Source of the DNA: Curtobacterium herbarum | Lineage (GTDB): Bacteria; Actinomycetota; Actinomycetes; Actinomycetales; Microbacteriaceae | Direction of reading: 5' to 3' | Assembly: GCF_016907335.1 (NCBI RefSeq) | Contig: NZ_JAFBBT010000001.1 | Location: 1,736,001-1,800,000, forward strand | Length of the DNA: 64,000 nucleotides | Shown here: positions 2,302 through 60,108 of the stretch, piece after piece | How the letters are laid out: each line of letters opens with the position of its first letter | Position numbering within the stretch: the stretch's first letter is position 1 | The notes under the pieces: generated by a model | What the model saw: only the letters and a program-made list of their open reading frames with translations | Databases searched by the model: none | What the model was told of the DNA's origin: nothing | Made by a program: the position numbers and the translations under genes

Positions 2302-2353
2302 CTGACGGACGGGAGGCCCGGGACCAGCTGGTCCCGGGCCTCCCGTCCGTCAG
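2302..2353. terminator. Perfect 52-bp palindromic bidirectional terminator
   Basis: Two 26-base arms meet with no spacer; the left arm contains GACGGGAGGCCCG and the right arm its exact complement. It lies between the convergent ends of mshC (+) and the PAC2 gene (-), where a bidirectional terminator is expected. No T-tract follows, as is common in GC-rich actinobacteria. It is the clearest member of the repeated 13-mer hairpin family in this window. Confidence 0.85.
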
Positions 2354-2381
2354 GTGCTCGCGTCCCCGACGCGGCTCGCGC

Positions 2382-3314
2382 CTACTGGGGCGGCTGCGGC
2401 GGACGCCACGGCCCTTCACCGGCCGCGCCGTTGCCGTCCTTGCCGTCCTTGTGCTCGCGGCGCCGGAGGTACTGCTCGAACTCCTGCGCGATGGCGTCGC
2501 CGGAGGCCTCGGGGGAGTCGACGGTGTCGCGTGCCTGCTCGAGCTGCCCGATGTACGAGGCCATGTCCTCGTCGTCCGAGGCGAGGGCGTCGATGCCCTC
2601 CTCCCACTGCGCGGCGTCGTCGAGCAGGGTGCCGCGTGGCACGGTGACGTCGGTGAGCTCCTCCATCTTGTCGAGGAGCGAGAGCGTGGCCTTCGGCGAC
2701 GGGGCGTTGTGGACGTAGTGCGGCACCGACGCCCAGAGCGACAGGGTCGTCAGGCCGGCCTTGTCCATCGAGTCGGCCAGGACCCCGAGGATGCCGGTCG
2801 GCCCCTCGTACGTCGACTTGTCCACGTCGAACGCGGCGCGGACGGTCGCGTTCTCGCTCGAGACGAACACCGAGATCGGGCGGGTGTGCGGCACGTCGGC
2901 GAGCATCGCGCCGACGAAGACCACCGCGTCGATCGAGTAGACGTCGGCCAGGTCGATGATCTCGGCGCAGAACGCACGCCAGGTGCGCGAGGGCTCCGGT
3001 CCGACGAGGACGAAGACGTCACGCTCGGTCGGAGCGCCGGTCGCACCGATCACCGGGCGACCCTCGGCGCTGGGGCCGTGCAGGACGATCCGCGGCCACT
3101 GCACGCCGCGTTCGCCCTCGTCGTCGAAACCGACCTCGGGCCGGTTGAACTGGTAGTCGACGTAGCGTTCCCCGTCGATCTCACGGAGCTCGGACAGCTC
3201 GAGAGCGTCGACGATGCGCCGGGCGAGACCGCTCGCGGCCTCTCCCGCGTCGTTCCAGCCCTCGAACGCGACGACGAGCAGCCGTCCGTCGTTGAAGGGG
3301 GAGTGCTGTGGCAC
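2382..3314 (-). CDS. PAC2-family (proteasome assembly chaperone-like) protein
   Basis: A 310-residue cytoplasmic protein of the PAC2 family, related in fold to proteasome assembly chaperones and widespread in actinobacteria, where its role is not established. Typical features are the N-terminal LLVVAFEGWNDAGEAASG, the motif VLVGPEPSRTWRAF, the segment VVFVGAMLADVPHTRPI and the C-terminal helix ending in a basic tail. I chose the GTG that gives VPQHSPFNDGR because GGAGG sits seven bases upstream; a longer reading frame to about 3419 adds only low-complexity, arginine-rich residues. It stands alone on the minus strand between plus-strand genes. Confidence 0.85.
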   Translation of the reverse strand: MPQHSPFNDGRLLVVAFEGWNDAGEAASGLARRIVDALELSELREIDGERYVDYQFNRPEVGFDDEGERGVQWPRIVLHGPSAEGRPVIGATGAPTERDVFVLVGPEPSRTWRAFCAEIIDLADVYSIDAVVFVGAMLADVPHTRPISVFVSSENATVRAAFDVDKSTYEGPTGILGVLADSMDKAGLTTLSLWASVPHYVHNAPSPKATLSLLDKMEELTDVTVPRGTLLDDAAQWEEGIDALASDDEDMASYIGQLEQARDTVDSPEASGDAIAQEFEQYLRRREHKDGKDGNGAAGEGPWRPPQPPQ

Positions 3315-3596
3315 GGCAGGGCCTCCTGGTGGTGGAGTGGTCCGCCGCGCTCGCGCGCGCGCCGACCGGACACGATCAGGCATCCACGATAGTCCCGCCG
3401 TCGACCCGCCGCCCTCCACGGGGCTGGCGGCGGCGGGCCTCCGACGCGCCCGCCCGGCGGCGGCGACCGGTCACGTCCTGTCGGGTACGGGCCTCCAGAC
3501 CGACAGTCCGTGACCGGTCGGCGGGAGTGAGCGGGGTGTCCTGACCGCTCGACGGGCAAGCCTGCGGGGCCGGAGCGCCGCGGACGGTGCCGCCGG

Positions 3597-3602
3597 TAGA
3601 CT
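3597..3602 (+). promoter_or_regulatory. -10 element (TAGACT) for a leaderless HAD-trmI transcript
   Basis: TAGACT lies eight bases before the GTG chosen for the HAD gene, the spacing expected if transcription starts at or next to the start codon. No ribosome-binding site is visible, which supports leaderless initiation. Confidence 0.6.
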
Positions 3603-3610
3603 CGTCGCCC

Positions 3611-4384
3611 GTGACCGAGCAACCTCCTGCCCCCGCCCAGCCCACGAGCGTGCTGCCCGATGCCGTGCTGTGGGACATGGACGGCACGATCATCGACACC
3701 GAGCCGATCTGGCAGGAGTCGCAGGTCGTCCTCACCGCCCGCTACGGCGCCGAGTGGACCCACCAGGACGGTCTGTCGCTCGTCGGCAGCGGGCTCGAGC
3801 GCTCGGGCGAGATCCTCCGCGACAAGGGCGTCGACATGGGGGTCGAGGAGATCGTCCAGTGGATGACCGACTACGTGGTCGAGCGGCTGCACGGCGACGA
3901 CCTGCCCTGGCGTCCCGGCGCCCGTGAACTCGTCGAGGAACTGCACGACCGCGGCATCCCGACCGCGCTCGTGACGATGTCCCGGCGGGCGATGGCGCTC
4001 GTGACCGCCGAGGCGTTCGGCGCCCGCGGCTTCCGGGTCGTCGTGGCCGGGGACGACGTCGATCGTCCGAAGCCGCACCCCGACGCGTACCTGGCCGCCG
4101 CCGCACAGCTCGGCGTCGAGCCCACCGCCTGCATCGCGATCGAGGACTCCGCCACCGGCGTCGCCTCGGCTCGCGCCTCGGGCGCCGTCACCGTCGCGGT
4201 CGAGCACATCGTGCCGATCGCCGAGGGCGCGGGTGACGTGCACCTCACCACCCTCGGTGGCGTCGACGTCGACCGCCTGCTCGAACTCACCGGTCCGGCG
4301 CTCAGCGCGCGTGCCGCCGAACGCCAGGGAGGCCCGGCCTCCGTCCCGACGTCGGCCCCCGTCACCGAAGGGGACGCGCGATGA
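3611..4384 (+). CDS. HAD-superfamily phosphatase
   Basis: A 257-residue HAD hydrolase of the beta-phosphoglucomutase/phosphatase-like subgroup; the substrate cannot be deduced. Motif I is LWDMDGTIID, with the nucleophile and acid/base aspartates close to the N-terminus; motif II is the Thr/Ser in ALVTMS; motif III/IV is the Lys in RPKPHPDAYL followed by IEDSATGVASA. A helical cap lies between motifs I and II. The GTG start at 3611 is preferred over an in-frame GTG 24 bases upstream because TAGACT sits at leaderless spacing. The stop overlaps the ATG of trmI (ATGA), so the two are co-expressed. A functional link to tRNA methylation is not obvious. Confidence 0.88.
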   Translation: MTEQPPAPAQPTSVLPDAVLWDMDGTIIDTEPIWQESQVVLTARYGAEWTHQDGLSLVGSGLERSGEILRDKGVDMGVEEIVQWMTDYVVERLHGDDLPWRPGARELVEELHDRGIPTALVTMSRRAMALVTAEAFGARGFRVVVAGDDVDRPKPHPDAYLAAAAQLGVEPTACIAIEDSATGVASARASGAVTVAVEHIVPIAEGAGDVHLTTLGGVDVDRLLELTGPALSARAAERQGGPASVPTSAPVTEGDAR

Positions 4385-5493
4385 GCGACGACACCACCAC
4401 GACGCCCGACAGCGGCGCGCACGACGACACCGTCTCCCTTGCGGAGGTCGAGCTGCCGCACACCGCCGGCGGCGCACCGCACACGCCGCCGCGCGGACCG
4501 TTCCGCGCCGGCGACCGGGTGCAGCTGACCGGGCCGAAGGGCAAGCTCACGACGCTCTCGCTCGAGCCCGGCGTGGTCTACCACACGCACCGCGGCATGC
4601 TCGCGCACGACGACGTCATCGGGCAGCCCGACGGCTCGGTCATCCGGGCCAGCACCGGCGACGAGTACCTGGCGCTCCGCCCGCTGCTGAACGACTACGT
4701 CATGTCGATGCCGCGCGGTGCCGCGATCGTCTACCCGAAGGACGCGGCCCAGATCGTCGCCTTCGCGGACGTCTTCCCCGGAGCCCGTGTCGTCGAGGCC
4801 GGCGTCGGCTCGGGCGCGCTGTCGCTCTGGCTGCTCCGCGCGATCGGCCCGACCGGCAGCCTGCAGTCCTTCGAGCGTCGCGAGGAGTTCGCGGCGATCG
4901 CCCGGGGCAACGTCGGCACCTTCCTCGGCGCGGTCCCCGACAACTGGTCCGTCACCGTCGGCGACCTGGTGGAGGAACTGCCCGACGCCGTCGAGCCGCA
5001 GAGCATCGACCGCGTCGTGCTCGACATGCTCGCGCCCTGGGAGTGCGTCGACGAGGCGGCCGACGCCCTCGCACCCGGTGGCCTCATCGTCTGCTACGTC
5101 GCCACGGTGACGCAGCTCTCCCGCACCGCCGAGGCGCTCCGCGACACCGGACGCTTCACCGATCCGCAGTCGAGCGAGACCCTGGTGCGGACCTGGCACG
5201 TCGAGGGACTCGCGGTCCGCCCGGACCACCGCATGGTGGCGCACACCGGCTTCCTGATCACCGCCCGTCGTCTGGCGGACGGGGTCGTGCTGCCGAACCT
5301 CAAGCGTCGTGCCGGCAAGGCCGAGTTCTCCGACGAGGACGTCGAGGCCTGGACGCCCGGTGCGGTCGGCGAACGCGGCGCCAGCGACAAGAAGCTCCGC
5401 AAGGTCGCCCGTCAGGCGGCTGCCCAGGCCCGCAAGGTCGCCGCTGCCGAAGCGTCGTCGGCAGCGTCCGACCCCGCCGACGACGACCGGTAG
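4381..5493 (+). CDS. trmI: tRNA (adenine(58)-N1)-methyltransferase TrmI
   Basis: A 370-residue SAM-dependent enzyme that makes m1A58 in the T-loop of tRNAs. Residues 39-100 form the small N-terminal beta domain typical of TrmI (RVQLTGPKGKLTTLSLEPG). The Rossmann SAM site is VVEAGVGSGALSLWL at about 137-151, and the catalytic Asp lies in VVLDMLAPWE. The C-terminus carries an alanine- and lysine-rich low-complexity tail of about 40 residues beyond the catalytic core, common in actinobacterial versions. In other actinobacteria the gene is usually near proteasome genes; here the PAC2 gene and pafBC lie close by, a weak echo of that neighbourhood. Confidence 0.93.
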   Translation: MSDDTTTTPDSGAHDDTVSLAEVELPHTAGGAPHTPPRGPFRAGDRVQLTGPKGKLTTLSLEPGVVYHTHRGMLAHDDVIGQPDGSVIRASTGDEYLALRPLLNDYVMSMPRGAAIVYPKDAAQIVAFADVFPGARVVEAGVGSGALSLWLLRAIGPTGSLQSFERREEFAAIARGNVGTFLGAVPDNWSVTVGDLVEELPDAVEPQSIDRVVLDMLAPWECVDEAADALAPGGLIVCYVATVTQLSRTAEALRDTGRFTDPQSSETLVRTWHVEGLAVRPDHRMVAHTGFLITARRLADGVVLPNLKRRAGKAEFSDEDVEAWTPGAVGERGASDKKLRKVARQAAAQARKVAAAEASSAASDPADDDR

Positions 5494-5536
5494 GCTTCCC
5501 ACCGTGCCCGCCCTGCATCGACCGGAAAGAGGATCC

Positions 5537-9390: not shown

Positions 9391-11822
9391 CCGAGACGAG
9401 CTTGAGCCCCGCCGAGCGGTTCGCCGCCGCGAAGGTCCGGTCCCGCTCGCGCAACCTCGAGCTGTTCCGGACCGACCTGCGCTTCGACCTCGACCCGTTC
9501 CAGCTGGCGGCGTGCGACTCCGTCGACCAGGGCCGGAGCGTCCTGGTGGCCGCGCCGACCGGCGCCGGCAAGACGATCATCGCCGAGTTCGCGATCTGGC
9601 TGGCGATGCGACAGCCGACCGCGAAGGTGTTCTACACGACGCCGATGAAGGCGCTGAGCAACCAGAAGTACGCCGAGCTCGTGCAGGCCTACGGTGAGAC
9701 CGAGGTCGGTCTGCTCACCGGCGACACGAACGTCAACCCGCGGGCCCGCGTCGTCGTGATGACGACCGAGGTGCTGCGGAACATGATCTACGCCGACTCC
9801 GACCTGCTCGACGACCTGGCCTGGGTCGTCCTCGACGAGGTGCACTACCTGGCGGACCGGTTCCGCGGTGCCGTGTGGGAAGAGGTCATCCTGCACCTGC
9901 CGACCGAGGTCCGGCTGGTCTCGCTCTCCGCCACGGTGTCGAACGCCGAGGAGTTCGGCGACTGGCTGCAGACGGTCCGGGGCGACACCGACGTCATCGT
10001 GTCGGAGGACCGGCCGGTGCCGCTCGACCAGCACGTCCTCGTCGGCAACAAGATGGTCGACCTGTTCGACTCGTCGGGTGCGGCGGCGACCAACCGCGTC
10101 AACCCGGAGCTGCTCCGTCTGGTGGGTAGCGCCTCCCGGGGGTCCGGCGGTCCGCGCGGCCGACGCGGTCGTGGTGGGTTCCCGGAACGTCGGGGCCCGC
10201 GCACCGAGAAGGCGCACCGTGAGCAGATCGCGAAGATGCTCGACGAACGGATGCTGCTGCCCGCGATCTTCTTCGTCTTCAGTCGCAACGGCTGCGACCA
10301 GGGTGTCCGCCACGTCGTCCGCTCCGGGCTCTCCCTGACGACGTCCGACGAGCGTCGTGAGATCCGCGAGACGGCCGAGTACCACTGCCGGACGCTCCTC
10401 GACGAGGACCTGGCCGTGCTCGGCTACTGGGAGTGGCTCGAGGGCCTGGAGCGCGGTGTCGCCGCGCACCACGCCGGCCTGCTGCCCGCCTTCAAGGAGG
10501 TGGTCGAGGACCTGTTCCAGCGCAAGCTCGTCAAGGTCGTCTTCGCCACCGAGACCCTGGCGCTCGGCGTGAACATGCCCGCGCGCACGGTCGTGCTCGA
10601 GAAGCTCGAGAAGTTCAACGGCGAGGCCCGGGTGCCGATCACGCCGGGGGAGTACACGCAGCTCACCGGTCGCGCCGGCCGCCGTGGCATCGACGTCGAG
10701 GGCCACTCGGTCGTGCAGTGGACGGACGGACTCGAGCCGCAGGCGGTGGCCTCGCTCGCGAGCCGTCGGACGTACCCGCTCAACTCGTCGTTCAAGCCGA
10801 CGTACAACATGGCCGTCAACCTCATCGAGCAGTTCGGTCGGGACCGGACGCGCGAGGTCCTCGAGACCTCGTTCGCGCAGTTCCAGGCGGACCGGTCGGT
10901 CGTCGACCTGGCGCGCAAGGTCCGCTCGCAGCAGGAGTCGCTCGACGGCTACCAGAACGCCATGCAGTGCCACCTCGGCGACTTCACCGAGTACGCGGCG
11001 CTCCGTCGGCAGCTCTCGGACCTCGAGCGCACGAACGTCCCCGGCGGTCGTGAGGCGTCGCACGGTGCCCGGCAGGAGCGCCAGGCCGCGATCAGCGAGG
11101 TCCGCCGTCAGCTCCAGCGGCACCCCTGCCACGCCTGCCCGGACCGCGAGGCACACGCCCGCTGGGCCGAGCGCTGGTACAAGCTCAAGCGCACCAACGA
11201 CAAGCTCGTGCAGCAGATCCGCTCCCGGACGGGTGCGGTCGCGACGACGTTCGACCGTGTGACCGACGTGCTGCTGGCACTCGGCTACCTGGTGCAGGAC
11301 GCGCAGGGCGACGTCACGGTGGCAGCCGGTGGCCGCCGGCTGCAACGCATCTACGGCGACCGGGACCTGCTGGTCGCCGAGTGCCTGGAGGCCGGGGTCT
11401 GGAAGGAGCTCACGCCCGCACAGCTCGCCGGCATGGCCGCCACGATCGTCTACCAGCCGCGTCGTGAGGACGCCCCGGGCACCGAGCACGCCGTCCCGCG
11501 CGGGGCCTTCCGTCCGGCGCTCGACGAGACGCTGACGATCTGGTCGCGCCTGGACGACGTCGAGCGCGACGCCCGGCTCGCCGGGTCCGAGCCGCCGACC
11601 CCGGCCATCGCACTCGGCATGTTCCGCTGGGCGTCCGGCTCGCCGCTCGACGACGTGCTGCGCTCGCTCGACCTGGCCGCCGGCGACTTCGTCCGCTGGT
11701 CGAAGCAGGTCATCGACCTCCTCGACCAGATCCGGAACGCCGGCGACCCGGACCTGGCGCAGGTCGCCCGACGTGCCACCGACGCGGTCCGGCGCGGCAT
11801 CGTCGCGTACGCGACGGTCTGA
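9387..11822 (+). CDS. Ski2/Mtr4-like DEAD/DEAH-box helicase
   Basis: An 811-residue superfamily-2 helicase resembling actinobacterial HelY. Domain 1 carries Walker A APTGAGKT at 56-63, the DEVH box at 150-153 and motif III SAT at 181-183. Domain 2 carries LALGVNMPARTVV and motif VI YTQLTGRAGRRGID. A glycine/arginine-rich insertion (about 250-275, [13 protein letters not shown]) precedes domain 2, and a helical C-terminal region contains the motif HPCHACPDREAHARWAERW. Expected activity is ATP-dependent RNA unwinding in RNA processing or decay. The GTG start overlaps the tatC stop, the same order seen in other Microbacteriaceae. Confidence 0.92.
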   Translation: MTETSLSPAERFAAAKVRSRSRNLELFRTDLRFDLDPFQLAACDSVDQGRSVLVAAPTGAGKTIIAEFAIWLAMRQPTAKVFYTTPMKALSNQKYAELVQAYGETEVGLLTGDTNVNPRARVVVMTTEVLRNMIYADSDLLDDLAWVVLDEVHYLADRFRGAVWEEVILHLPTEVRLVSLSATVSNAEEFGDWLQTVRGDTDVIVSEDRPVPLDQHVLVGNKMVDLFDSSGAAATNRVNPELLRLVGSASRGSGGPRGRRGRGGFPERRGPRTEKAHREQIAKMLDERMLLPAIFFVFSRNGCDQGVRHVVRSGLSLTTSDERREIRETAEYHCRTLLDEDLAVLGYWEWLEGLERGVAAHHAGLLPAFKEVVEDLFQRKLVKVVFATETLALGVNMPARTVVLEKLEKFNGEARVPITPGEYTQLTGRAGRRGIDVEGHSVVQWTDGLEPQAVASLASRRTYPLNSSFKPTYNMAVNLIEQFGRDRTREVLETSFAQFQADRSVVDLARKVRSQQESLDGYQNAMQCHLGDFTEYAALRRQLSDLERTNVPGGREASHGARQERQAAISEVRRQLQRHPCHACPDREAHARWAERWYKLKRTNDKLVQQIRSRTGAVATTFDRVTDVLLALGYLVQDAQGDVTVAAGGRRLQRIYGDRDLLVAECLEAGVWKELTPAQLAGMAATIVYQPRREDAPGTEHAVPRGAFRPALDETLTIWSRLDDVERDARLAGSEPPTPAIALGMFRWASGSPLDDVLRSLDLAAGDFVRWSKQVIDLLDQIRNAGDPDLAQVARRATDAVRRGIVAYATV

Positions 11823-11833
11823 CGGGAGGCCCG

Positions 11834-13429
11834 GTGTCGGTCCTCGGGACAGCCGTGCGCCCGACACGGGCGGCCGTCCCGCGCGCGCACGGGCCGTCGG
11901 TGCCGGACGTCCCGGCGTCGGCGTCCGTCTTCGCCGCGCTCCCGCTCGGCCAGGCGATCCCGCTGTCGGTGATCGGCGGACTGCTCTTCGCCCTGTCGTT
12001 CCCGTCGCCCGGCTGGTGGTTCCTGGCCTACCCGGCCGTGGCCTGCCTGCTGCTGGCCGCGATGGGGCAGCGCGCCCGTCGCGCGTCCTGGCTCGGGCTG
12101 CTCGCCGGTGCCGTGTTCTGGGTGCCCGCGATCTCGTGGGCCGGGCGGTACCTCGGACCGGTGCCGTGGTTCGCGCTGGCGCTCCTCGAGGCGGCGCTCT
12201 TCGCCCTCGGCACGGTCGCGATCGCCCTGGCCTACCGCTGGGTGCCGCGTGTGGTGACCTCGACCGCCGGGCGGGTGTGGGGCCTCCCGTCCGTGGTGGC
12301 CGCACTGTGGACCGGACGCGAGTGGTTCTCCGGCAGCTGGCCGTACGGCGGGTTCGCCTGGGGGCGCGTCGGCCTGTCGCAGTCGCAGGGACCCTTCACC
12401 CACCTGGTCGCGTACGTCGGTGTGCTCGGGCTGAGCTTCGTCGTCGTGTACTGCGTCGCCGTGGTGGTCTCGCTCGGGTTGGTCGCCGGCGTCCGGCTGC
12501 CGATGCGCATCGCGACCGCCGGACTGCTGGTGTCCGCGGTGCTCGCCGTGCCGGCCTGGCCGACCGCGGTCCACGGCACCGTCCGCATCGAGTCGGTGCA
12601 GGGCAACGGTCCGGCGGGGTACTTCGACCGCGCGCAGCCCGGCGACGTGCTGCGGTCCCAGGTCGCCGCGACCGACGTCGACGCCCGCGGGGTGGACCTG
12701 GTCGTCTGGCCCGAGGCCAGCGCCGAGTACGACCCGCGCCGTCAGCCGGTCATCGCCGGGGCCCTCGACGCGGTCGTGCAGAGCGTCGGCGCCCCGATCG
12801 TCGCCGGCGCCGTGACGCAGACCTCGTCGGGCGTGCTCCACAACACCTCGTTCGTCTGGGGCGCGGACGGCTGGCAGGCCTCCTACGACAAGAAGCGACC
12901 GGTGCCGTTCGGCGAGTACGTGCCGGACCGCTGGCTCTACTCGAAGCTCGCGCCCTCGCTGATCGGCCTGCTGCAGCGCGACTACACGCCGGGGACCAAG
13001 CCGAACGTCCTGCCGGTCGCGGGCATCCGGGCGGGCGTGATGATCTGCTTCGACGTCGTCGACGACGGCCTGACCGCCGACCTGGCACGCGGGGGAGCGC
13101 AGGTGATCCTGGCGCAGACGAACAACGCGGACTTCGACGGCACCGATGAGAACCTGCAGCAGCTCGAGATCGCGCGGATGCGGGCCGTCGAGACCGGCCG
13201 GTCGCTCGTCAACGTCTCGACCGTCGGCGCGTCGCAGGTCATCGACCCGGACGGACGCACCATCGACCGGGTGCCCGCGTACACGGCGACCTCGATGGTG
13301 ACCGACGTCCCGCTCGGCACCTCGACGACCCCCGCCACGGTGGCCTCCGGCGGCGTCACGCTGGTGCTGTCGCTCGGTGGGCTGCTCGTGCTGCTGGCCT
13401 GCGCTCCGGGGCGTCGACGCCGCAGTTGA
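11834..13429 (+). CDS. lnt: Apolipoprotein N-acyltransferase Lnt
   Basis: A 531-residue membrane enzyme that transfers an acyl chain to the N-terminal cysteine of lipoproteins. After about 40 polar residues, several transmembrane helices run to about residue 240, followed by an external carbon-nitrogen hydrolase domain. The Glu-Lys-Cys catalytic triad is visible: Glu294 in VVWPEASAEYD, Lys353/354 in YDKKRPVPFGEYVP, and Cys405 in VMICFDVV. A last hydrophobic helix lies near the C-terminus. The GTG start has GGGAGG five bases upstream; that site belongs to an exact copy of the 13-mer GACGGGAGGCCCG directly after the helicase stop. Confidence 0.94.
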   Translation: MSVLGTAVRPTRAAVPRAHGPSVPDVPASASVFAALPLGQAIPLSVIGGLLFALSFPSPGWWFLAYPAVACLLLAAMGQRARRASWLGLLAGAVFWVPAISWAGRYLGPVPWFALALLEAALFALGTVAIALAYRWVPRVVTSTAGRVWGLPSVVAALWTGREWFSGSWPYGGFAWGRVGLSQSQGPFTHLVAYVGVLGLSFVVVYCVAVVVSLGLVAGVRLPMRIATAGLLVSAVLAVPAWPTAVHGTVRIESVQGNGPAGYFDRAQPGDVLRSQVAATDVDARGVDLVVWPEASAEYDPRRQPVIAGALDAVVQSVGAPIVAGAVTQTSSGVLHNTSFVWGADGWQASYDKKRPVPFGEYVPDRWLYSKLAPSLIGLLQRDYTPGTKPNVLPVAGIRAGVMICFDVVDDGLTADLARGGAQVILAQTNNADFDGTDENLQQLEIARMRAVETGRSLVNVSTVGASQVIDPDGRTIDRVPAYTATSMVTDVPLGTSTTPATVASGGVTLVLSLGGLLVLLACAPGRRRRS

Positions 13430-17071: not shown

Positions 17072-17079
17072 CCACGGGC

Positions 17080-17115
17080 CGGGAGGCACGGTGCCGGGCC
17101 GCCACGGGCCTCCCG
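17080..17115. terminator. Hairpin downstream of the Nudix gene
   Basis: Arms CGGGAGGC (17080-17087) and GCCTCCCG (17108-17115) flank a GC-rich interior with further partial pairing. The right side contains the complement of GACGGGAGGCCCG at 17105-17117, marking it as a degenerate member of the 13-mer hairpin family. Confidence 0.6.
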
Positions 17116-17161
17116 TCCGACGGCTGGCAGCGTCCCTGCGAGCGGCGACCCGCCGCGGGCG

Positions 17162-17167
17162 TAGCGT
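17162..17167 (+). promoter_or_regulatory. -10 element (TAGCGT), leaderless small gene
   Basis: TAGCGT is seven bases before the ATG of the small acidic protein; no ribosome-binding site is present. Confidence 0.45.
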
Positions 17168-17174
17168 CCCGGCC

Positions 17175-17336
17175 ATGACCTACAGCCAGCCGGATCCGGC
17201 AGAAGAGACCACGCAGGCAGCGCCCGAGCAGCCCGACACGGAGCAGTCCACCGTCGGCGAGCAGGGCGGGGAGCACGCAGCCCTCGAGATCGACAGCTCG
17301 GACGTCCCGACGACGTCCGACGACTCGTCGAACTGA
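17175..17336 (+). CDS. Small acidic low-complexity protein (53 residues)
   Basis: An unrecognised 53-residue protein rich in Glu, Asp, Gln, Thr and Ser, without hydrophobic core or cysteines; it is predicted to be disordered. The reading frame begins MTYSQPDPAEETTQ and ends DDSSN. Support comes from the leaderless TAGCGT-ATG arrangement and its position between a terminator and arsC. No function is proposed. Confidence 0.5.
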   Translation: MTYSQPDPAEETTQAAPEQPDTEQSTVGEQGGEHAALEIDSSDVPTTSDDSSN

Positions 17337-17380
17337 CGCGAGCGCGCTCGCACACCACGCCGGACGCCTGGTGACGGCAC

Positions 17381-17836
17381 TCAGACGAGTGTCGACACCA
17401 GGCGTTCGACGCGTCCGCGGACGTCGTCGCGGATCGGGCGCACGGCCTCGAGCGGCAGTCCCGCGGGGTCGGTGAGCTCCCAGTCCTCGTAGCGCTTGCC
17501 GGGGAACACCGGGCAGGCGTCACCGCACCCCATCGTCACGACGACGTCGGCGTGCCGGACGGCATCCGTGGTGAGGATCGCGGGGGTCTGGCCCACGATG
17601 TCGATGCCGACCTCCTGCATGGCGGCCACCGCGACCTGGTTCACCTGGTCAGCGGGCTCGGACCCGGCGGAGAACACGTCGACGCGGTCACCGGCGATCG
17701 CGCGGAGGAACCCGGCTGCCATCTGCGAGCGGCCGGCGTTGTGCACGCAGACGAAGAGGACGGACGGCCGGCGCTCGTGCGTGGCGGCGGTGTCGGCTGT
17801 GTCGGCGGGCGCGTGCGGATCCGGTGCGTCGGTCAT
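17381..17836 (-). CDS. arsC: Arsenate reductase ArsC (LMW protein-tyrosine-phosphatase fold)
   Basis: A 151-residue protein with a 23-residue polar N-terminal extension followed by the LMW-PTP phosphate loop CVHNAGRS (Cys30, Arg36). Two further cysteines, Cys104 and Cys108 in TMGCGDACPVFPG, sit where redox-cycling arsenate reductases have theirs, and DPAG follows (Asp123). These make arsenate reduction more likely than phosphotyrosine hydrolysis; electrons would come from thioredoxin or mycothiol/mycoredoxin. No arsB, acr3 or arsR lies adjacent, so this is an isolated ars gene. It is divergent from the ECF sigma gene across a 388-base spacer. Confidence 0.85.
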   Translation of the reverse strand: MTDAPDPHAPADTADTAATHERRPSVLFVCVHNAGRSQMAAGFLRAIAGDRVDVFSAGSEPADQVNQVAVAAMQEVGIDIVGQTPAILTTDAVRHADVVVTMGCGDACPVFPGKRYEDWELTDPAGLPLEAVRPIRDDVRGRVERLVSTLV

Positions 17837-17934
17837 GCGTCCATCGTGCCGCACGCGCCCGGCGTCCGGCCGTGGTGTGGGCCGAGGCTCCGTCCGCCGC
17901 CGCTCGGCCTCCCGTGGTTCCGGCCGCCGCCGCA

Positions 17935-19786: not shown

Positions 19787-19814
19787 GGGCACGCCGGAAC
19801 GCGACCAGTGAACC

Positions 19815-19856
19815 GGCCGGGAGGCCCGTGGCGACCCCGCCACGGGCCTCCCGGCC
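19815..19856. terminator. Terminator after the ECF operon
   Basis: Perfect 18-bp arms (19815-19832, 19839-19856) with a 6-base loop. The stem core is CGGGAGGCCCG, a variant of the recurrent 13-mer. No T-tract. Confidence 0.8.
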
Positions 19857-19875
19857 GTTCCGCGTCCCGACGTGT

Positions 19876-21878: not shown

Positions 21879-21932
21879 GCTGACGGACGGGAGGCCCATG
21901 GCGGATCCGCCACGGGCCTCCCGTCCGTCAGC
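21879..21932. terminator. Near-perfect 54-bp palindromic terminator
   Basis: Two 27-base arms meet at the centre with a single A-C mismatch. The right arm contains the complement of GACGGGAGGCCCG; the left has GACGGGAGGCCCA. It lies between the convergent pentapeptide (+) and SDR (-) genes. Confidence 0.85.
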
Positions 21933-23581: not shown

Positions 23582-23592
23582 CCCTCCGCGAA

Positions 23593-23652
23593 ACGCAACG
23601 TGGGCGGCACGGCGCAACGGAGTACCGCCGCGAGGAACCGCCCACGTTGCGT
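23593..23652. terminator. Bidirectional hairpin of the GCAACG/CGCAAGACGCAA type
   Basis: Perfect 15-bp arms (23593-23607 and 23638-23652) flank a 30-base loop, with further imperfect outer pairing to 23662. It lies between the convergent XRE and dhaM genes. The segment TTGCGTCTTGCGGG (23647-23660) recurs as its exact complement at 51541-51554. Confidence 0.75.
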
Positions 23653-23664
23653 CTTGCGGGAGGA

Positions 23665-24384
23665 CTACTCGCCGAAGCCGGAACGGACCAGGTCCGCCAG
23701 GTCGTCGACCGCGTCGCGGGCGTCCGGGCCGGAGGCCTCGATCGTCACGGTCGCACCCTGCGGCAGCGCGAGGGCCATGATCGCCAGCAGGCTCTTCGCG
23801 TCGACCCCGTTGACCCGCACCGACGCGTCGTGCTTCGCGGCGGTCTTCACGAACTCCGCGGCGGGACGTGCGTGCAGGCCGGACGCGTTGACCAGCTCGA
23901 CGGTGGCGGAGGCGTGGGTCCCGTCGGCCGCAGCGGCGTCGGTGACGTCGGTCGCGCCTCCCGGGAGGCCCGTGGTCGCGTCGTCGGGACCGGTGTCGGT
24001 CCCGGCACCGGCAGCGCTCGCGGCCGCAGCGAGGACCGCGTCGACGTCACCGCCGGTCTGGGCGGCGACCGCCGCGGCGACCGTGCCCTCGACCACCGGC
24101 GCGTCCGAGACGTGCACGCGGGCACGGAGCTCGTCGTCCAGGAAGTCGAGCGCGGTGTCCGTCGTCAGGTAGGCGGATCCGAGGTCGCAGAGCACGACGA
24201 TGCCGTCTGCGGCGGCCAGCTCCTCGATGCCGGCGGTGATCGCCGCGAAGGACGTGCCGATGCCGCCCTCGTCGGTGCCGCCCGCTGCGACGAGCTGCAC
24301 GTCGCCGGCCATCTGCCGGGCGATGTCGACCGTGCCCTGGGCGACGGCGGCGCTGTGCGAGACGACCAGGATGCCGACGCTCAT
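23665..24384 (-). CDS. dhaM: DhaM PTS phosphotransferase fused to HPr
   Basis: A 239-residue phosphocarrier in two domains. Residues 1-120 are the mannose-type EIIA domain of DhaM, with active His10 in VVSHSAAVAQG and LCDLGSAYL. A 35-residue Ala/Asp/Thr linker follows. Residues 160-239 are an HPr domain with active His171 in ASGLHARPAAEF and the serine segment AKSLLAIMAL. Phosphate from PEP would flow EI to HPr to EIIA to the ADP held by DhaL. No enzyme I domain is attached, unlike the three-domain E. coli DhaM, so EI must be supplied elsewhere. It is coupled to dhaL by an ATGA overlap. Confidence 0.93.
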   Translation of the reverse strand: MSVGILVVSHSAAVAQGTVDIARQMAGDVQLVAAGGTDEGGIGTSFAAITAGIEELAAADGIVVLCDLGSAYLTTDTALDFLDDELRARVHVSDAPVVEGTVAAAVAAQTGGDVDAVLAAAASAAGAGTDTGPDDATTGLPGGATDVTDAAAADGTHASATVELVNASGLHARPAAEFVKTAAKHDASVRVNGVDAKSLLAIMALALPQGATVTIEASGPDARDAVDDLADLVRSGFGE

Positions 24385-28918: not shown

Positions 28919-28966
28919 GACGGGAGGCCCGTACCGGTTCTGCGGAACCGGTACGGGCCTCCCGTC
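28919..28966. terminator. Bidirectional terminator glpK/trpD
   Basis: Perfect 22-bp arms with a TGCG loop. Both arms carry an exact copy of GACGGGAGGCCCG (28919-28931, complement 28954-28966). It separates convergent genes. Confidence 0.88.
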
Positions 28967-32726: not shown

Positions 32727-34414
32727 GCAGCACAACGACCACATCCCCCACCACCGAGTCGACGAACAAGCCGACTCCTGACCGTGGTTCGCGCCTGATC
32801 AACTACACCGCGAACTACATCGACGAGCGCACCAGCATCTCCGGCCTGGTGAAGGAGGTCGGTCGCAAGATCTTCCCCGACCACTGGAGCTTCATGCTCG
32901 GTGAAGTCGCGCTCTACAGCTTCGTCGTCGTCCTGCTCTCGGGGACCTTCCTGACGTTCTTCTACCAGGCGTCCATGGCCGAGGTCGTCTACAACGGCAC
33001 CTACGTCCCGCTCAAGGGCGTCGACATGTCGGTGGCGCTGCAGTCGACGCTGAACATCTCGTTCGAGATCCGCGGCGGTCTGTTCGTCCGACAGATCCAC
33101 CACTGGGCAGCCCTGCTGTTCGTGGCCTCCGTCATGCTGCACATGGCCCGCGTCTTCTTCACCGGCGCGTTCCGCAAGCCGCGTGAGCTCAACTGGGTCT
33201 TCGGCTTCGTGCTCTGGGTCCTCGCGATGGCCGAGGGCTTCACCGGCTACTCGCTCCCCGACGACCTGCTCTCCGGCAACGGTCTGCGCATCATCGTCGG
33301 TATGATCGAGGGTGTCCCGGTCATCGGCGTGTGGATCGCCTACCTGCTCTTCGGCGGCGAGTTCCCCGGGACCGACATCGTCGGCCGCCTGTACACGCTG
33401 CACATCCTGCTGCTGCCGGCGATCCTCGTCGCGGTGCTCGGTGTCCACCTCGTGCTCGTCGTCATCAACAAGCACACCCAGTACGCAGGTCCGGGCAAGA
33501 CCAACGACAACGTCGTGGGTGTCCCGATCCTCCCGGCGTTCGCCGCGAAGGCCGGTGGCTTCTTCTTCATCGTCGCCGGCATCCTGGCCGCCATCGCGTC
33601 GTTCTTCACGATCAACCCGATCTGGAACTACGGCCCGTACGACCCCTCCCCCGTGTCCGCCGGTACCCAGCCCGACTGGTACATCGGCTTCGCGGACGGC
33701 GCGCTCCGTCTGGTGCCGCCGCACTGGGAGGTCAACTGGTTCGGCTACACGGTCTCGTTCAACATCCTCGTGCCGATCGCGATCCTCATGGGTCTCATCG
33801 TGACGATCTTCGTGTACCCGTTCATCGAGGCCTGGGTCACCGGCGACAAGCGTGAGCACCACATCGCCGACCGCCCGCGCAACGCCCCGACCCGCACCGC
33901 GATCGGTGTCGCCGGCATCACGCTCTACGGCGCACTGTTCACCGCGGCCTCGTCGGACCTCATCGCGACCCACTTCATGGTGTCGATCAACCACGTGATC
34001 CACGTGCTCCAGGCGACGACGGTCCTCGGTCCGTTCGTGGCGTTCTGGATCACGAAGCGTGTCTGCCTGGCGCTGCAGAAGAAGGACCGCGAGATCGTCC
34101 TCCACGGGTACGAGTCGGGCCGCATCGTCCGACTGCCGCACGGTGAGTACATCGAGGTCCACGAGCAGCTCGACGAGTACGAGCGCTGGCGTCTGCTGGA
34201 GTTCAACGACTACAAGCCGCTGATGATCCGCCCGGACTCCCGCGGCCGCATCACCTCGCTGCAGAAGGCCCGTGCACGCGCCTCCCGCTTCTTCTTCGAA
34301 GACCGCATCGAACCGGTGTCGAAGAACGAGCTCGAAGCGGCACACGCCGCCCACCACGGTCCGGACCTCGAGGGGACCCACCAGGCCCCGCAGGTCGGTG
34401 CCGGTACGCGGTAA
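32723..34414 (+). CDS. qcrB: Cytochrome b subunit QcrB of the bc1 complex
   Basis: A 563-residue menaquinol-oxidising cytochrome b. It has the haem-ligating helices (IHHWAALLFVASVMLHMARV and TLHILLLPAILVAVLGVHL), the PDWY quinol-site motif in QPDWYIGFADG, and an actinobacterial C-terminal extension of about 120 residues after the last helix. The ATG overlaps the qcrA stop. QcrB is the known target of imidazopyridine-type inhibitors in mycobacteria. A strong hairpin closes the operon. Confidence 0.96.
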   Translation: MSSTTTTSPTTESTNKPTPDRGSRLINYTANYIDERTSISGLVKEVGRKIFPDHWSFMLGEVALYSFVVVLLSGTFLTFFYQASMAEVVYNGTYVPLKGVDMSVALQSTLNISFEIRGGLFVRQIHHWAALLFVASVMLHMARVFFTGAFRKPRELNWVFGFVLWVLAMAEGFTGYSLPDDLLSGNGLRIIVGMIEGVPVIGVWIAYLLFGGEFPGTDIVGRLYTLHILLLPAILVAVLGVHLVLVVINKHTQYAGPGKTNDNVVGVPILPAFAAKAGGFFFIVAGILAAIASFFTINPIWNYGPYDPSPVSAGTQPDWYIGFADGALRLVPPHWEVNWFGYTVSFNILVPIAILMGLIVTIFVYPFIEAWVTGDKREHHIADRPRNAPTRTAIGVAGITLYGALFTAASSDLIATHFMVSINHVIHVLQATTVLGPFVAFWITKRVCLALQKKDREIVLHGYESGRIVRLPHGEYIEVHEQLDEYERWRLLEFNDYKPLMIRPDSRGRITSLQKARARASRFFFEDRIEPVSKNELEAAHAAHHGPDLEGTHQAPQVGAGTR

Positions 34415-40653: not shown

Positions 40654-40693
40654 GACCGCTGCCGGGCCTCCCGACCGCCACACCGGAGTGCGC

Positions 40694-48397: not shown

Positions 48398-49435
48398 TCA
48401 CGCATCGTCGGCGGCGAAGAGTCCGGGCTGCGCGGCGGCCTGACCCGGGGTCAGACCGAAGTGGCGCCAGGCCTGGGGCGTCGCGATCCGGCCCCGCGGT
48501 GTCCGCGTCACCAGGCCGATCCGCACCAGGAACGGCTCCACGACGGACTCGATGGTCTCGGACTCCTCGCCCACCGACACCGCGAGGGTGTTCAGGCCGA
48601 CGGGGCCGCCGTCGAAGCGGGTGAGCATCGTCTCGAGCACCGCGCGGTCGAGCCGGTCCAGGCCGTACTCGTCGACGTCGTACAGCTCGAGCGCCCCCTG
48701 GACCGCGGCCATGCCGTCCCGGGTGCCGTGCACGAGCGCGAAGTCCCGGACCCGGCGGAGCAGCCGGTTCGCGATGCGCGGGGTGCCGCGGGAACGCCCG
48801 GCGATCTCACGCAGCGCGTACCGGTCGAAGTCGAGCTCGAGCAGGTGTGCGGCCCGGATCAGGACCTGTTCGAGTTCGTCGCGCTCGTAGAACTCGAGGT
48901 GCGCGGTGAACCCGAAGCGGTCGCGGAGCGGGTTCGGCAGGAGCCCGGCACGGGTGGTCGCGCCGACGAGGGTGAACGGCGCCAGGTCGAGCGGGATGCT
49001 CGTCGCCCCGGCGCCCTTGCCCACCATCACGTCGATGCGGAAGTCCTCCATCGCCAGGTAGAGCATCTCCTCCGCCGAACGCGCCATGCGGTGGATCTCG
49101 TCGATGAACAGGACGTCACCGGGCATCAGCGACGACAGCACCGCGGCGAGGTCACCCGCGTGCTGGATCGCCGGCCCGCTCGACATCCGCAGGGGCCGCG
49201 CGGACTCGTGCGCGACGATCATCGCCAGCGTGGTCTTGCCGAGTCCGGGAGGCCCGGCCATCAGGATGTGGTCCGGCGTCCGGTCCTGCATCGCCGCGGC
49301 CTTGAGCAGCAGATCGAGCTGCCCGCGGACCTTGCGCTGCCCGACGAACTCGTCCAGCGACTTCGGGCGGAGCGCGCCCTCGAACGCCAGCTCTTCCGGC
49401 GACTGCGCGTCGGCGGCGGTGATCCCGCCGCTCAC
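48398..49435 (-). CDS. ruvB: Holliday junction branch-migration ATPase RuvB
   Basis: A 345-residue AAA+ motor. Walker [10 protein letters not shown] is at 61-69, Walker B with LFIDEIHR at 109-116, sensor 1 in [10 protein letters not shown], the arginine finger region in PLRDRFG, and the C-terminal winged helix [16 protein letters not shown]. The start is GTG ([11 protein letters not shown]), overlapping the ruvA stop (GTGA). Confidence 0.96.
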
Positions 49436-56361: not shown

Positions 56362-56409
56362 CGGGGCTGACCGGGTCCCGCCGTTCCGCGGGCGGGCGTG
56401 CGGGTGGTG

Positions 56410-56455
56410 CCGGACGGGAGGCGCGACACCGGTCGGTGCCGCGCCTGCCGTCCGG
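56410..56455. terminator. Hairpin after the small minus-strand gene
   Basis: Twenty-two-base arms match at 20 positions with a 2-base loop; the core GACGGGAGGCGCG is a variant of the 13-mer. It separates the small gene from apt. Confidence 0.75.
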
Positions 56456-56484
56456 CGCTGCTCGCGAGCGCGGGCCCACGTCGG

Positions 56485-57200: not shown

Positions 57201-57260
57201 CCAGCCTGGCTCGCCAGGCGAACCGGTCAGCCCTGGTCGTGGTTCAGGACGGGGTGTTCA

Positions 57261-57329
57261 TCAGCACGACCGGGCGAAGAGGCCGGCGGTCCCACGGACT
57301 GCTCGGAACGGCGTCTGCGTGGTGATCAT
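57261..57329 (-). CDS. Possible 22-residue small ORF
   Basis: Starts MITTQTPFRAV and ends ARSC. The only reasons to list it are a strong GAAAGGGGG six bases before the ATG and a plausible promoter upstream. Its stop overlaps a second ATG (TGATG) that opens a five-codon frame. It may be a leader peptide, a small protein, or chance. Confidence 0.25.
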   Translation of the reverse strand: MITTQTPFRAVRGTAGLFARSC

Positions 57330-57398
57330 TGTCGGCCCCCTTTCGGCACGGGTTGCTGGTTCTCGACGGCGGATCGGCGATCCGTTCGCGTCGAGAGA

Positions 57399-57428
57399 AC
57401 ACTATCCAGGTCGAGAACAGACGCGCAA
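57399..57428 (-). promoter_or_regulatory. Candidate sigma-70-type promoter TTGCGC-N18-TAGTGT
   Basis: On the minus strand TTGCGC (57428-57423) is followed after 18 bases by TAGTGT (57404-57399), about 70 bases upstream of the small ORF. Three TCGAGAAC-like words lie around it (also as GTTCTCGA). Confidence 0.35.
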
Positions 57429-57469
57429 CCCTTTTCCCGCATTTCTCCGAGATTGCACTCGCGAACACA

Positions 57470-57507
57470 CGAGAAGCCCCCGGTACCGCAGTACCGGGGG
57501 CTTCTCG
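57470..57507. terminator. Terminator of the clp gene
   Basis: Perfect 17-bp arms with a CGCA tetraloop, 13 bases beyond the clp stop codon. Confidence 0.88.
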
Positions 57508-57519
57508 AGGAACAGCTGA

Positions 57520-60108
57520 CTAGACCACGACCGGTGCGTCGACCACCGCGACGAGCTCGTCGTCGGCGACGTCGATCCGGACGGTCTCACCCTCGTGCGC
57601 CGACCCGTCGACGACGAGTTCGGCGATCCGGTCGTCGACCTCGCGCTGGATCAGCCGACGGAGCGGACGGGCGCCGTACTCCGGCTCGTAGCCGTGCTGC
57701 GCGAGCCAGTCCGTCGCGGCCTCGGACACCGACAGGACCATGCCCTGCGCGGCGACCCGGAAGGCCGTGTCCTGCAGCAGCAGCGACACGATGGACCGCA
57801 GCTGCCCGCGCTCGAGCTTGCGGAAGAGCACGATCTCGTCGATGCGGTTGATGAACTCCGGCCGCATCGACTCGCGGAGCTTGCCCATCACCCGGTTGCG
57901 CAGGTCGTCCTCGGCGTACCCACCGTCCGCGGACACCGAGAACCCGAGCGCACCCGTCCGGGACGCCAGGAACTCCGAGCCGATGTTCGAGGTCATGATG
58001 ACGACCGTGTTGCGGAAGTCGACCGTGCGCCCCTGCCCGTCGGTGAGTCGCCCGTCGTCGAGCACCTGCAGCAGCAGGTTGAACACGTCGGGGTGGGCCT
58101 TCTCGACCTCGTCGAGCAGGATCACCGAGTACGGGTTCCGACGGACGCGCTCGGTGAGCTGCCCGGCCTCGTCGTAGCCGACGTACCCCGGAGGGGCACC
58201 GACCAGCCGGGACACCGTGTGCCGTTCGCCGAACTCGCTCATGTCGAAGCGCAGCATCGCCGACTCGTCACCGAACAGCGACGCCGCCAGGGCCTTGGCG
58301 AGCTCGGTCTTGCCGACACCGGTCGGGCCGAGGAACAGGAAGCTGCCGACTGGGCGACGCGGGTCCCCCATGCCGGTGCGGCTGCGGCGGACCGCCTTCG
58401 CGACGGCGCGCACCGCGTCGTCCTGCCCGACCACACGGTCGTGCAGTTCGGGTTCCAGGGCGGCCAGGCGGGTCTTGTCGGCGGAGCCGAGGCGTGCCAC
58501 CGGGATGCCGGTGGCCCGGGACACCACGGCGGCGATGTCCGCTTCCGTGATGACGTCGTCCGCGGCCGCCGGACGGGAGGCCCGCTCGGCGTCACCGGTG
58601 GAGGCGGCGGTGATCCGCGCCTCCAGTCCGGCGATCTCGTCGCGCAGGCCCGACGCCGCCTCGTACTGCTCCTCGGCGACCGCGTGGTCCTTCCGGGCGC
58701 TCAGCTCCGCGACCTGGGCCCGGAGCGCCTCGACGTCGACGTCACCGGAGCGGGCGAGACGGCGGCGGGCACCGGCCTGGTCGATCAGGTCGATCGCCTT
58801 GTCCGGCAGGTGCCGGTCGGTCACGTAGCGGTGCGACAGCTCGACGGACGCGCGGATGGCGTCGTCGGCGTAGGTCACGCCGTGGTGCTCGGCGTAGCGG
58901 GGGCTCAGTCCGGTGAGGATGGCGACCGCGTCCTCGACACCGGGCTCCCCCACCGTGACGGGCTGGAAGCGGCGCTCGAGGGCTGCGTCCTTCTCGATGC
59001 GGCGGTACTCGGTGAGCGTCGTCGCACCGACCAGGTGCAGGTCCCCGCGGGCCAGACGCGGCTTGAGGATGTTGCCCGCGTCCATCGAGCCGCCCTCGCC
59101 ACCGCCACCGGCGCCGACGACGGTGTGGAGTTCGTCGACGAAGACGATGAGCTCGTCCGCGTGCGCGGCGATCTCGTCCATCGCGTTCGTCAGGCGCTCC
59201 TCGAAGTCCCCGCGGTAGCGGGTGCCGGCGAGCATGCCGGGCAGGTCGAGGGCGACGACCCGCTTGCCCTGCAGCAGGGTGGGGACGTCACCGTCGACGA
59301 TGCGCTGGGCGAGGCCCTCGACGATCGCGGTCTTGCCGACACCGGGCTCGCCGATGAGGACGGGGTTGTTCTTGGTGCGCCGGAGCAGGATCTCGACGGC
59401 CTGCTCGATCTCGTCCGCGCGGCCGATGACCGGGTCGATGCGACCCTCGCGGGCGCGGGCGCTGAGGTCGGTGCCGTACTGGTCCAGCGTCGGGGTCTCC
59501 GACCGCTCTTCCTGCCGGTCGGTCGCGCCGGGCACGGGACGCCCCTCCCGTGCGGCCTCGGCCGCTTCCTGTGCGTACGACTGCATCACCTGCGGGGTGA
59601 CGCCGGCACTCGCGAGCAGCTGACCGGCGACGGTATCCTGGTCCGTGACGAGCGCGAAGAAGACGTGCTCGGGGTCGGTGTACGTGCTGCCGAACCCGCG
59701 CGCGGCCTGGGTGGCCTCGAGCAGGATGCGCTGCGCGGACGGGGTCAGCGCGGGGCGGCCCTCGACGGTGTCGCCCGAGGGCATCGGCAGGCGCTGCTCG
59801 ACCTCGGCGGCGAAGCGCTCCGGGTCGGCGCCCGCGGACCGCAGGACGGCCGCGAAGGGCTCGGTGCCGACGAGCACGTGCAGCACGTGCAGGGCGTCGA
59901 TCTCGTGCTGCCCCTGCTCGACGGCGTACTCGGACGTCTGCTGGAGCAGTTCGTGGGTCCGCCGGCTGAGCAGCCGGGTGATGTCGACCGGTCGCCCGAA
60001 CGGCACGGACCGCTGGGACTGGCCGGGGTTCTGTGAAGCCGCAAGCAGTCGAGCGAGGAACTCGTCGAACGAGTCGTTGCCGCCGGTCGGGCCGAACGTC
60101 TGTGGCAA
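57520..60108 (-). CDS. ClpC-type AAA+ unfoldase, HspR-controlled
   Basis: An 862-residue class I Clp ATPase. Residues about 45-190 are a Clp N-domain. D1 has Walker A GEPGVGKT and [13 protein letters not shown]; a short middle region holds a UVR motif ([20 protein letters not shown]); D2 has Walker [29 protein letters not shown] and a C-terminal D2-small domain. The UVR motif, short middle domain and GALGFSV loop before the D2-small domain indicate a ClpC/ClpP-partner protein rather than ClpB, whose middle domain is long. The start is TTG with GGAGG upstream. A HAIR operator lies 18 bases above it. Likely role: heat- or misfolding-induced protein degradation or refolding. Confidence 0.9.

Follow-up and report, generated by a model that had tools for sequence, protein, structure and literature searches.

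A repeated word of Curtobacterium in paired and unpaired form: a probable uptake-sequence-like self tag

Introduction

Why should one short string of letters build hairpins behind genes and also stand singly within them? This question is raised by the window analysed here, a stretch of 64,000 nucleotides from Curtobacterium herbarum (Microbacteriaceae; assembly GCF_016907335.1, contig NZ_JAFBBT010000001.1, positions 1,736,001–1,800,000), in which a 13-mer recurs as hairpin arms and as single copies. A preliminary description of the window had likened this pattern to the DNA-uptake signals of Haemophilus and Neisseria and had named a favoured terminator stem as the alternative. Sequence-specific DNA uptake is placed in two proteobacterial families, Neisseriaceae and Pasteurellaceae, by a review (PMC5031613, cited from part of its text), and among the matches listed from the open-licence literature there was no report of an uptake-sequence system outside these families, actinobacteria included. 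Here we describe the wider word to which the 13-mer belongs and weigh the readings that could account for it.

Results and Discussion

The repeat and its spread

All eight exact copies of the 13-mer listed before are present in the window, on the forward strand from 2308, 11821, 28919 and 58572 and on the reverse strand from 2335, 17105, 21913 and 28954. Their supposed rarity by chance is real, with 0.05 copies expected from a dinucleotide shuffle and at least eight in 0 of 100 shuffles. The genome that holds the window (G000) is a single contig of 3,515,806 bases and carries 240 exact copies (116 forward, 124 reverse), 122 of them taken up by 61 exact inverted pairs, while the reversed string used as control occurs 0 times. 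By its glycerol kinase gene, the closest relatives of G000 that bear a name are Curtobacterium (95–96% protein identity). For a closer look, 56 pieces of 20 kb, evenly stepped along the genome, were combined with the window to give a sample of 1.184 Mb, in which a script trained on the samples called the genes. This sample holds 77 exact 13-mers: 34 in exact pairs (18 between convergent and 16 between co-directional genes, 0 divergent, 0 coding), 17 with a near partner (two in genes) and 26 unpaired (14 in genes). The outer arm of the sampled hairpins is constant and the inner letters vary, and genic and intergenic copies align to one motif, roughly CGG(A/C)CGGGAGGCnCG with n as a free position, and to a companion form in which T replaces the second G (CTGGAGGCnCG). 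The wider word, C(G/T)GGAGGCnCG, of which the 13-mer is a single spelling, occurs in a paired hairpin form and in an unpaired genic form. Written as CKGGAGGCNCG, it was counted 26 times in the window, where 2.2 copies would be expected.

Three surveys bear on the spread of the repeat. The 13-mer is present in 84 of 396 genomes sampled throughout the phylum, never with more than three copies outside G000; among 59 relatives searched it has 2–257 copies in 35 other Curtobacterium genomes, and in the 23 genomes of other genera it was found once each in three; and GGACGGGAGGC occurs 21–584 times in seven Curtobacterium genomes and at most 19 times in 292 family genomes of other genera. Because both strings are rare outside Curtobacterium in all three surveys, the repeat is, in the genomes searched, a property of this genus, with very uneven copy number.

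Copies inside genes

The coding excess in G000 was analysed in 1,022 of the 1,122 called genes (at least 300 nt each, 1.01 Mb), and Markov rankings cover words seen at least 10 times there or at least five times in other genomes. CGGGAGGCCCG was found 64 times in these genes compared with 14.1 expected from a synonymous-codon shuffle and 2.4, 2.0 and 5.7 from three-phase Markov models of orders 3, 4 and 5. At order 4 this word and its overlaps top the 10-mers and 11-mers (28,998 and 17,072 words); under the shuffle null GACGGGAGGC ranks first at k = 10, narrowly, and CGGGAGGCCCG first at k = 11, and at k = 8 and 9 other words rank above the uptake-like word. Errors in gene calling do not account for the coding excess: restricted to the 186 genes that have an ortholog in one of the other Curtobacterium samples, the count of C(G/T)GGAGGCnCG is 34, with 9.4 expected and a maximum of 15 in 100 shuffles.

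The 129 coding copies of CGGGAGGCNCG divide into 63 sense and 66 antisense, or 67 plus and 62 minus, with no shift by genome quarter; coding GACGGGAGGC was found in all six frames, and a partner with at most two mismatches lies close by in nine of 40 cases. By codon-use quintile the word density is 199, 272, 170, 89 and 69 per Mb, so that genes with the most typical codons carry it more sparsely. The preliminary description had named two outcomes as fatal to an uptake reading, counts near expectation outside terminators and confinement of copies to the 3' ends of genes. Neither is what we found, as the word tops the coding 10- and 11-mers and mid-gene copies occur in both orientations. It had also called for a look at orientation, and the coding copies have no bias.

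This lack of polarity is the reason why we reject a polar signal for recombination or segregation, Chi-like or otherwise, which would fit a word that is frequent and conserved in genes; it is contradicted by the even strand and gene-orientation counts across all genome quarters and would not lead one to expect a paired form, and we regard it as very unlikely. A mutational or codon-context bias that favours the string without any function seems scarcely credible. Other words are also about two-fold over the shuffle null at k = 8–9, and one reading frame of the word gives the GC-rich codons CGG GAG GCC, as such a bias would have it; the excess nevertheless survives the order-5 phased context (64 vs 5.7), copies lie in all six frames, their spelling shifts with that of the hairpins (see below), and the string is not in excess in the other genera searched. 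As a separate observation, 13-mers around ACCGTCCGTTCCGTGG are repeated 11–13 times in the coding sample of G000, with 0.07–0.28 expected.

Conservation of the genic copies was followed in 201 ortholog pairs. The ten fixed letters are retained in 30 of 61 site comparisons, which count both directions and are not independent, whereas windows taken from these genes in the same frame would give 15.1; by genome this is 14/20 for G414 (6.4 expected), 14/27 for G425 (6.3 expected) and 0/2 for G610. With the two directions separated, third positions of codons for the same amino acid are identical in 72/86 cases within the word and in 793/1,196 in the flanks for one direction (p 0.0007), and the corresponding counts for the reverse comparison are 49/55 and 454/675 (p 0.0004), whereas the free position n is identical in 10 of 22 comparisons. 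The genic copies are conserved at the DNA level beyond codon constraint, and the check on single copies proposed in the preliminary description thus had a positive result, with synonymous positions kept above the flanks. One orthologous site reads CGGGAGGCACG in G000, CGGGAGGCCCG in G414 and, with a change from alanine to aspartate, CGGGAGGATCG in G412 (codons read by eye). The words lie in variable regions, the protein identity over eight codons on each side being 0.62 compared with a gene mean of 0.82 (n = 39).

Spelling in other genomes

The repeat was also analysed in 400 kb each of G414 and G425 and 200 kb each of G412 and G610, all from other Curtobacterium. At k = 11 CGGGAGGCCCG ranks first in G414 as in G000 (19 vs 0.9 in genes, 31 intergenic). 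The top word of G425 is CGGGAGGCGCG (15 vs 0.75 in genes, 47 intergenic), with only three and zero copies of the CCG spelling, and CTGGAGGCGCG is also in excess (9 vs 0.33 in genes, 22 intergenic). GGCCTGGAGGC leads in G412 (8 vs 0.25), followed by the unrelated GGGCACGGGCA, and CGGGAGGCACG (6 vs 0.21, 14 intergenic) and CGGGAGGATCG (7 vs 0.4, six intergenic) are in excess too. G610, which is smaller, lower in G+C and has few hairpins, gives a weaker signal with other spellings (7 CGGGAGGCGCG vs 0.6, 16 CGGAGGCGCG vs 3.6).

The coding copies largely follow the hairpin spelling of their own genome. The endings CCCG/CGCG/CACG occur 59/34/5 times in hairpins and 86/28/18 times in coding copies of G000, CCCG/CGCG 20/13 and 23/16 times in G414, CGCG/CACG/CCCG 45/5/0 and 26/1/3 times in G425, and CACG/ATCG/CGCG 10/5/4 and 8/7/8 times in G412. 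Dialects are clear in G425, in G412 and in the CCG genomes G000 and G414, with G610 providing no hairpins for comparison. All 60 Curtobacterium genomes counted have more copies of CGGGAGGCGCG than of its control (46–688 vs 5–38), and three genomes with two, three and five copies of the 13-mer carry 368, 463 and 312 of CGGGAGGCGCG. Independently of this, CGGGGGAG-type words are in excess in genes of G425 (CGCGGGGGAG 15 vs 2.2) and in a pool of other Microbacteriaceae (CGGGGGAGTC 8 vs 0.4).

Hairpins at gene ends

The samples contain 126 hairpins of the family, contributed by four genomes with none in the sample of G610; 57 lie between convergent and 65 between co-directional genes, making 122 at gene ends of these kinds, one lies between divergent genes and three in called genes. 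They have the GC-rich 3' stem-loop of an intrinsic terminator and lack its U-run, as the T fraction behind the 65 co-directional hairpins is 0.162 vs 0.152 in intergenic DNA and at least five T in 10 nt were found for only one of them. Mismatches on the sense strand of co-directional hairpins are G-U to A-C in a ratio of 20:14 for the family and 41:24 for others, a weak lean to RNA.

The hairpin behind glpK was matched by pattern in 30 of 36 Curtobacterium loci. The six missed loci comprise one with a visible hairpin (L253), one with the hairpin further on (L260), two that end early (L273, L099), one masked (L100) and one garbled (L276). After L271 with a different stem had been dropped, the alignment has 29 rows, 25 of them distinct. 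Some named loci look like duplicate genomes. In the distinct rows 94.7% of cells pair, compared with 34–46% if the partner is slid along, and the covariation score of 0.154 (0.073 in shuffles) was reached in 0 of 500 shuffles. Six pairs are changed on both sides, which 73 of 500 shuffles also reached, and the further pair types were reached by 33 of 500, these being two of five measures. Because of their position and of a structure without T-run, we infer that the hairpins act as U-less terminators or 3' ends.

Could the repeat then be only a favoured terminator stem, with selection acting on strong 3' hairpins that lack a U-run and a few single copies arising by chance? The placement of 122 of the 126 family hairpins between convergent or co-directional genes, their very stable folds and the compensatory changes in the glpK hairpin all speak for it. 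This alternative, already named in the preliminary description, explains the paired copies only: coding copies exceed four nulls, largely share the spelling of their genome and are conserved, 36 unpaired intergenic copies lie between divergent genes in G000, G414, G425 and G412, and G610 with its few hairpins still has the coding excess of CGGGAGGCGCG given above. As a full account we consider it quite unlikely. The word could also be the recognition site of a chromosome-organising or other sequence-specific protein unconnected with uptake, with the pairs as dimer sites. Perfect palindromes with repeated interiors and a fairly even, non-polar spread of the word agree with this, its spacing being slightly more even than random (coefficient of variation 0.83 vs 0.95, standard deviation 0.05). 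Such a protein would not predict hairpins almost exclusively at 3' ends, nor a spelling change common to hairpins and coding copies, and we judge it unlikely. Over 10-kb segments of G000 the lowest-G+C fifth holds 1.5 copies and the rest 3.5–3.9. A second hairpin family of about 60 nt with arms GCACAACAGGAACCsGCyCGAACC was also seen between gene ends of G000 (L045:5400, L071:17162, L051:11930, L063:1977, L073:15862).

Mobile DNA

A palindrome of the repetitive extragenic palindromic (REP) or miniature inverted-repeat type, multiplied through a RAYT (Y1) transposase or some other mobile element, would account for the many identical 40-nt palindromes. We found no Y1_Tnp match in G000 and reject the RAYT version on this ground; single arms in genes with orthologs, at conserved codons, do not suit such an element either, and the repeat seems scarce on plasmids and phages, which together make this origin very improbable. 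Ten of 72,556 plasmid records match the hairpin at all, with a near-complete hairpin (82–86% identity) on two plasmids of Microbacterium and one of Curtobacterium citreum (H1 NZ_CP038257.1:112639-112687; H2 NZ_CP064874.1:123813-123861; H3 NZ_CP126587.1:6517-6563). No phage record covers 80% of the hairpin, and partial matches were seen in five records of Arthrobacter phages. On the Curtobacterium plasmid pTCL (150 of 163.8 kb) the broad word is near background, with six copies, or 40 per Mb, and four of a control string, compared with 329, 305, 290, 315 and 110 per Mb in five chromosome samples, a point in favour of the uptake reading discussed below.

Competence and pilus genes

The preliminary description had suggested a check for com uptake genes, and G000 does encode them. 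A ComEC with lactamase domain adjoins an SLBB-HHH protein that is ComEA by its domains, PilT scores above its curated cut-off (463.9 vs 319.1 bits) with a PilB-like T2SSE match 0.4 kb ahead of it, and there is what we name a TadA-like ATPase with a T2SSF-family neighbour. A pilus gene run in G414 encodes a PilB-like protein (607 bits, under the PilB cut-off of 676), PilT above its cut-off, a T2SSF/PilC-like protein and a pilin, and continues with a weakly PilV-like protein (under the cut-offs), proteins of 232 and 609 residues and the start of a prepilin peptidase. The 232-residue protein has a pilin-type start, read by eye, and no family. The pilin-like genes in L245:15775-19689 of G414 have little or no family match and are candidate DNA receptors, among them two candidate minor pilins (L245:15775-17160 and 17160-17858).

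Weighing the uptake reading

Neisseriaceae have a DNA uptake sequence (DUS) and Pasteurellaceae an uptake signal sequence (USS), and of the sequence-level features that mark these words excess, unbiased coding copies, placement in variable protein regions, inverted pairs at 3' ends and dialects are seen here; on mobile DNA the picture is mixed, with one Curtobacterium plasmid near background and another carrying a hairpin. Coding excess, both orientations, synonymous conservation and shared spelling support the pattern behind the earlier uptake-signal reading, and from this sequence pattern we infer the function. In our judgement C(G/T)GGAGGCnCG is probably an uptake-sequence-like self tag of Curtobacterium, a view that we hold with appreciable doubt. 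In the mechanism that we propose, a minor pilin or another surface DNA receptor would prefer the word, DNA bearing it would be taken up by the type IV pilus with ComEA and ComEC and then recombined, and the resulting bias would spread and maintain copies at tolerant sites. Two inverted copies just behind a gene would give a very stable stem-loop in the transcript that could be used as terminator or 3' end, and paired copies would accumulate there because of this use. If the receptor preference drifted, the copies would slowly change their spelling together.

A number of observations weigh against this reading. About 1,160 copies per genome, as extrapolated from a third of G000, are modest beside about 1,900 in N. 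meningitidis (PMC3630211, in part). The strict word is retained in G412 in 2 of 12 comparisons with 2.4 expected, and the inverse relation of CCG and GCG counts over 36 genomes is weak (rho −0.27, p 0.11). CTCG was found in 29, 7, 5 and 7 coding copies of G000, G414, G425 and G412 and in only two hairpins, both in G414; this ending is nearly confined to coding copies, and the spelling match between coding copies and hairpins is therefore incomplete. At the clp copy in the window (58572–58584), 29 other Curtobacterium sequences were compared; 19 retain GCCTCC(A/C)G and 14 the complete word, and the four letters ahead of it match in 13–50%. Since the word is about as conserved as the 500 nt taken as a whole (0.85 vs 0.84) and the codon choice, not decisive by itself, is ordinary, this copy may be held by protein constraint. 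A small Curtobacterium citreum plasmid does carry the hairpin, and the chromosome densities compared with pTCL come from genomes other than its host. Among 150 Microbacteriaceae, 77 have a PilT above the cut-off (3/3 Curtobacterium), and ComEC gave a match in 10 of 14 control genomes, so neither is distinctive of the genus. Finally, no report of transformation in Curtobacterium or competence in Microbacteriaceae was among the matches listed from the open-licence literature.

Sister genera

Small de-duplicated gene samples from one neighbourhood, that of glpK, gave four pools from other genera. The Curtobacterium word is not enriched in any of these pools, and other words lead. In Microbacterium (70 kb) GGATGCCGCG ranks first (16 vs 1.65) and CGGATGCCGC reaches 13 vs 1.4; in Cryobacterium (50 kb) CGGATGCCGC is first at k = 10 (12 vs 1.1) and a palindrome at k = 9. 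Four Agromyces loci (L111, L112, L133, L137) hold 17 copies of CGGATGCCGC in genes and 11 between them, counted without an expectation, and some of the intergenic ones sit in hairpins such as CGGATGCCGCGGCTCGCGCGAGCCGCGGCATCCG. CGGATGCCGC agrees with the Curtobacterium word at CGG..G.CnCG, and CGGATGCCGCG-type words are perhaps a sister-genus dialect of the Curtobacterium-type word. On a further proposal, that the Microbacteriaceae as a family have an uptake system of independent origin whose word differs from genus to genus, we are almost evenly divided and lean slightly to doubt. Its dialects would be C(G/T)GGAGGCnCG for Curtobacterium and CGGATGCCGCG for Agromyces, Microbacterium and Cryobacterium, and minor pilins of a type IV pilus would read them. 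If real, such a system would be the first of its kind in Gram-positive bacteria, and a third, independent case in high-GC monoderms would make receptor bias plus drive testable against a benefit from self-DNA. It would also mark the plant-associated genus Curtobacterium as naturally transformable and make the word a practical tag for its genetics.

Copies in the window

Six hairpins of the window were folded and five are strong (z −8.4 to −11.8, −47 to −62 kcal/mol); Rfam gave no match at gathering scores in the window. A perfect inverted pair of two exact 13-mers at 2302–2353 (−58.7 kcal/mol) and a hairpin with one mismatch at 21879–21932 lie between convergent genes, and the perfect hairpin 3' of glpK at 28919–28966 is the one conserved across Curtobacterium with compensatory changes. 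The stems described before as close variants are real hairpins, one perfect with the stem variant GCCGGGAGGCCCG between co-directional plus-strand genes (19814–19857) and one in GCG spelling between co-directional minus-strand genes (56409–56456). The sixth, a degenerate pair of CGGGAGGCACG and an exact 13-mer between co-directional genes at 17078–17117, folds weakly (−29.3 kcal/mol, z −0.7). The hairpins of the family have no T-run, and the earlier word "terminator" for them draws on position and structure.

Two copies had been said to stand alone, which is true of 11821–11833 (plus strand), between a helicase-like gene and the lnt gene. The exact copy at 58572–58584 (plus strand, antisense), in a variable linker of the ClpB-like ATPase gene, has a second copy, CTGGAGGCGCG, in opposite orientation in the same gene (58616–58626, minus strand). 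Because the 11821 copy ends directly ahead of the GTG start of lnt, as called by our script, its GGGAGG may at the same time be a ribosome-binding site. Within genes we further found a one-mismatch 13-mer in lnt (12279–12291, minus), two overlapping copies in opposite orientation (23953–23972), unpaired CGGGAGGCGCG (34277–34287, minus) and unpaired antisense CGGGAGGCCCG at 49246–49256 (plus) and 60968–60978 (minus); unpaired CGGGAGGCCCG at 62370–62380 (plus) falls in a gene if the larger sample is used to train the caller and between genes in the window-only call. Unpaired copies between divergent genes are CTGGAGGCCCG at 3488–3498 (minus) and CGGGAGGCTCG at 60724–60734 (plus), and CGGGAGGCCCG at 40663–40673 (minus) is unpaired between co-directional genes. 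Arms resembling CGCAACGTnGGCGGC mark a third palindromic family, about 60–78 nt long, which has a member at 23586–23659 and others at L082:5323, L034:3591 and L037:13131.

Comparison with known systems

U-less (I-shaped) terminators of actinobacteria are strong 3' stem-loops without a T-run. The Curtobacterium hairpins share this build, and differ in that their stem is a fixed word which also occurs singly in genes. REP elements have been linked with RAYT transposases. Like these short palindromes in many copies (PMC3733652, in part), the Curtobacterium repeat is short, palindromic and multi-copy; it differs by its single arms in genes and by a genome without Y1_Tnp match. In Micrococcus luteus, another actinobacterium, with natural transformation by a Flp/Tad pilus, tad genes are required for transformation and are discussed with ComEA/ComEC (PMC4322843, in part), and the terms "uptake sequence" and "uptake signal" are absent from the main text of that paper; G000 likewise has ComEA/ComEC and a TadA-like ATPase, and Curtobacterium additionally has PilT. 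The USS of Pasteurellaceae, for which a pilin receptor has been proposed too (PMC12616744, in part), is also a repeated word that is frequent in terminators, and the terminators of some Neisseriaceae and Pasteurellaceae contain their uptake words (PMC13020248, in part). Its sequence is another one and its hosts belong to another phylum. The DUS of Neisseriaceae is described with an excess, dialects, permissive intragenic sites and inverted pairs at terminators (PMC3630211, in part). The Curtobacterium word is unrelated to it, GC-rich, has a free internal position and belongs to a high-GC monoderm host, and it has in common with the DUS that it is short and over-abundant, with single copies at permissive genic sites, inverted pairs at terminators and dialects.

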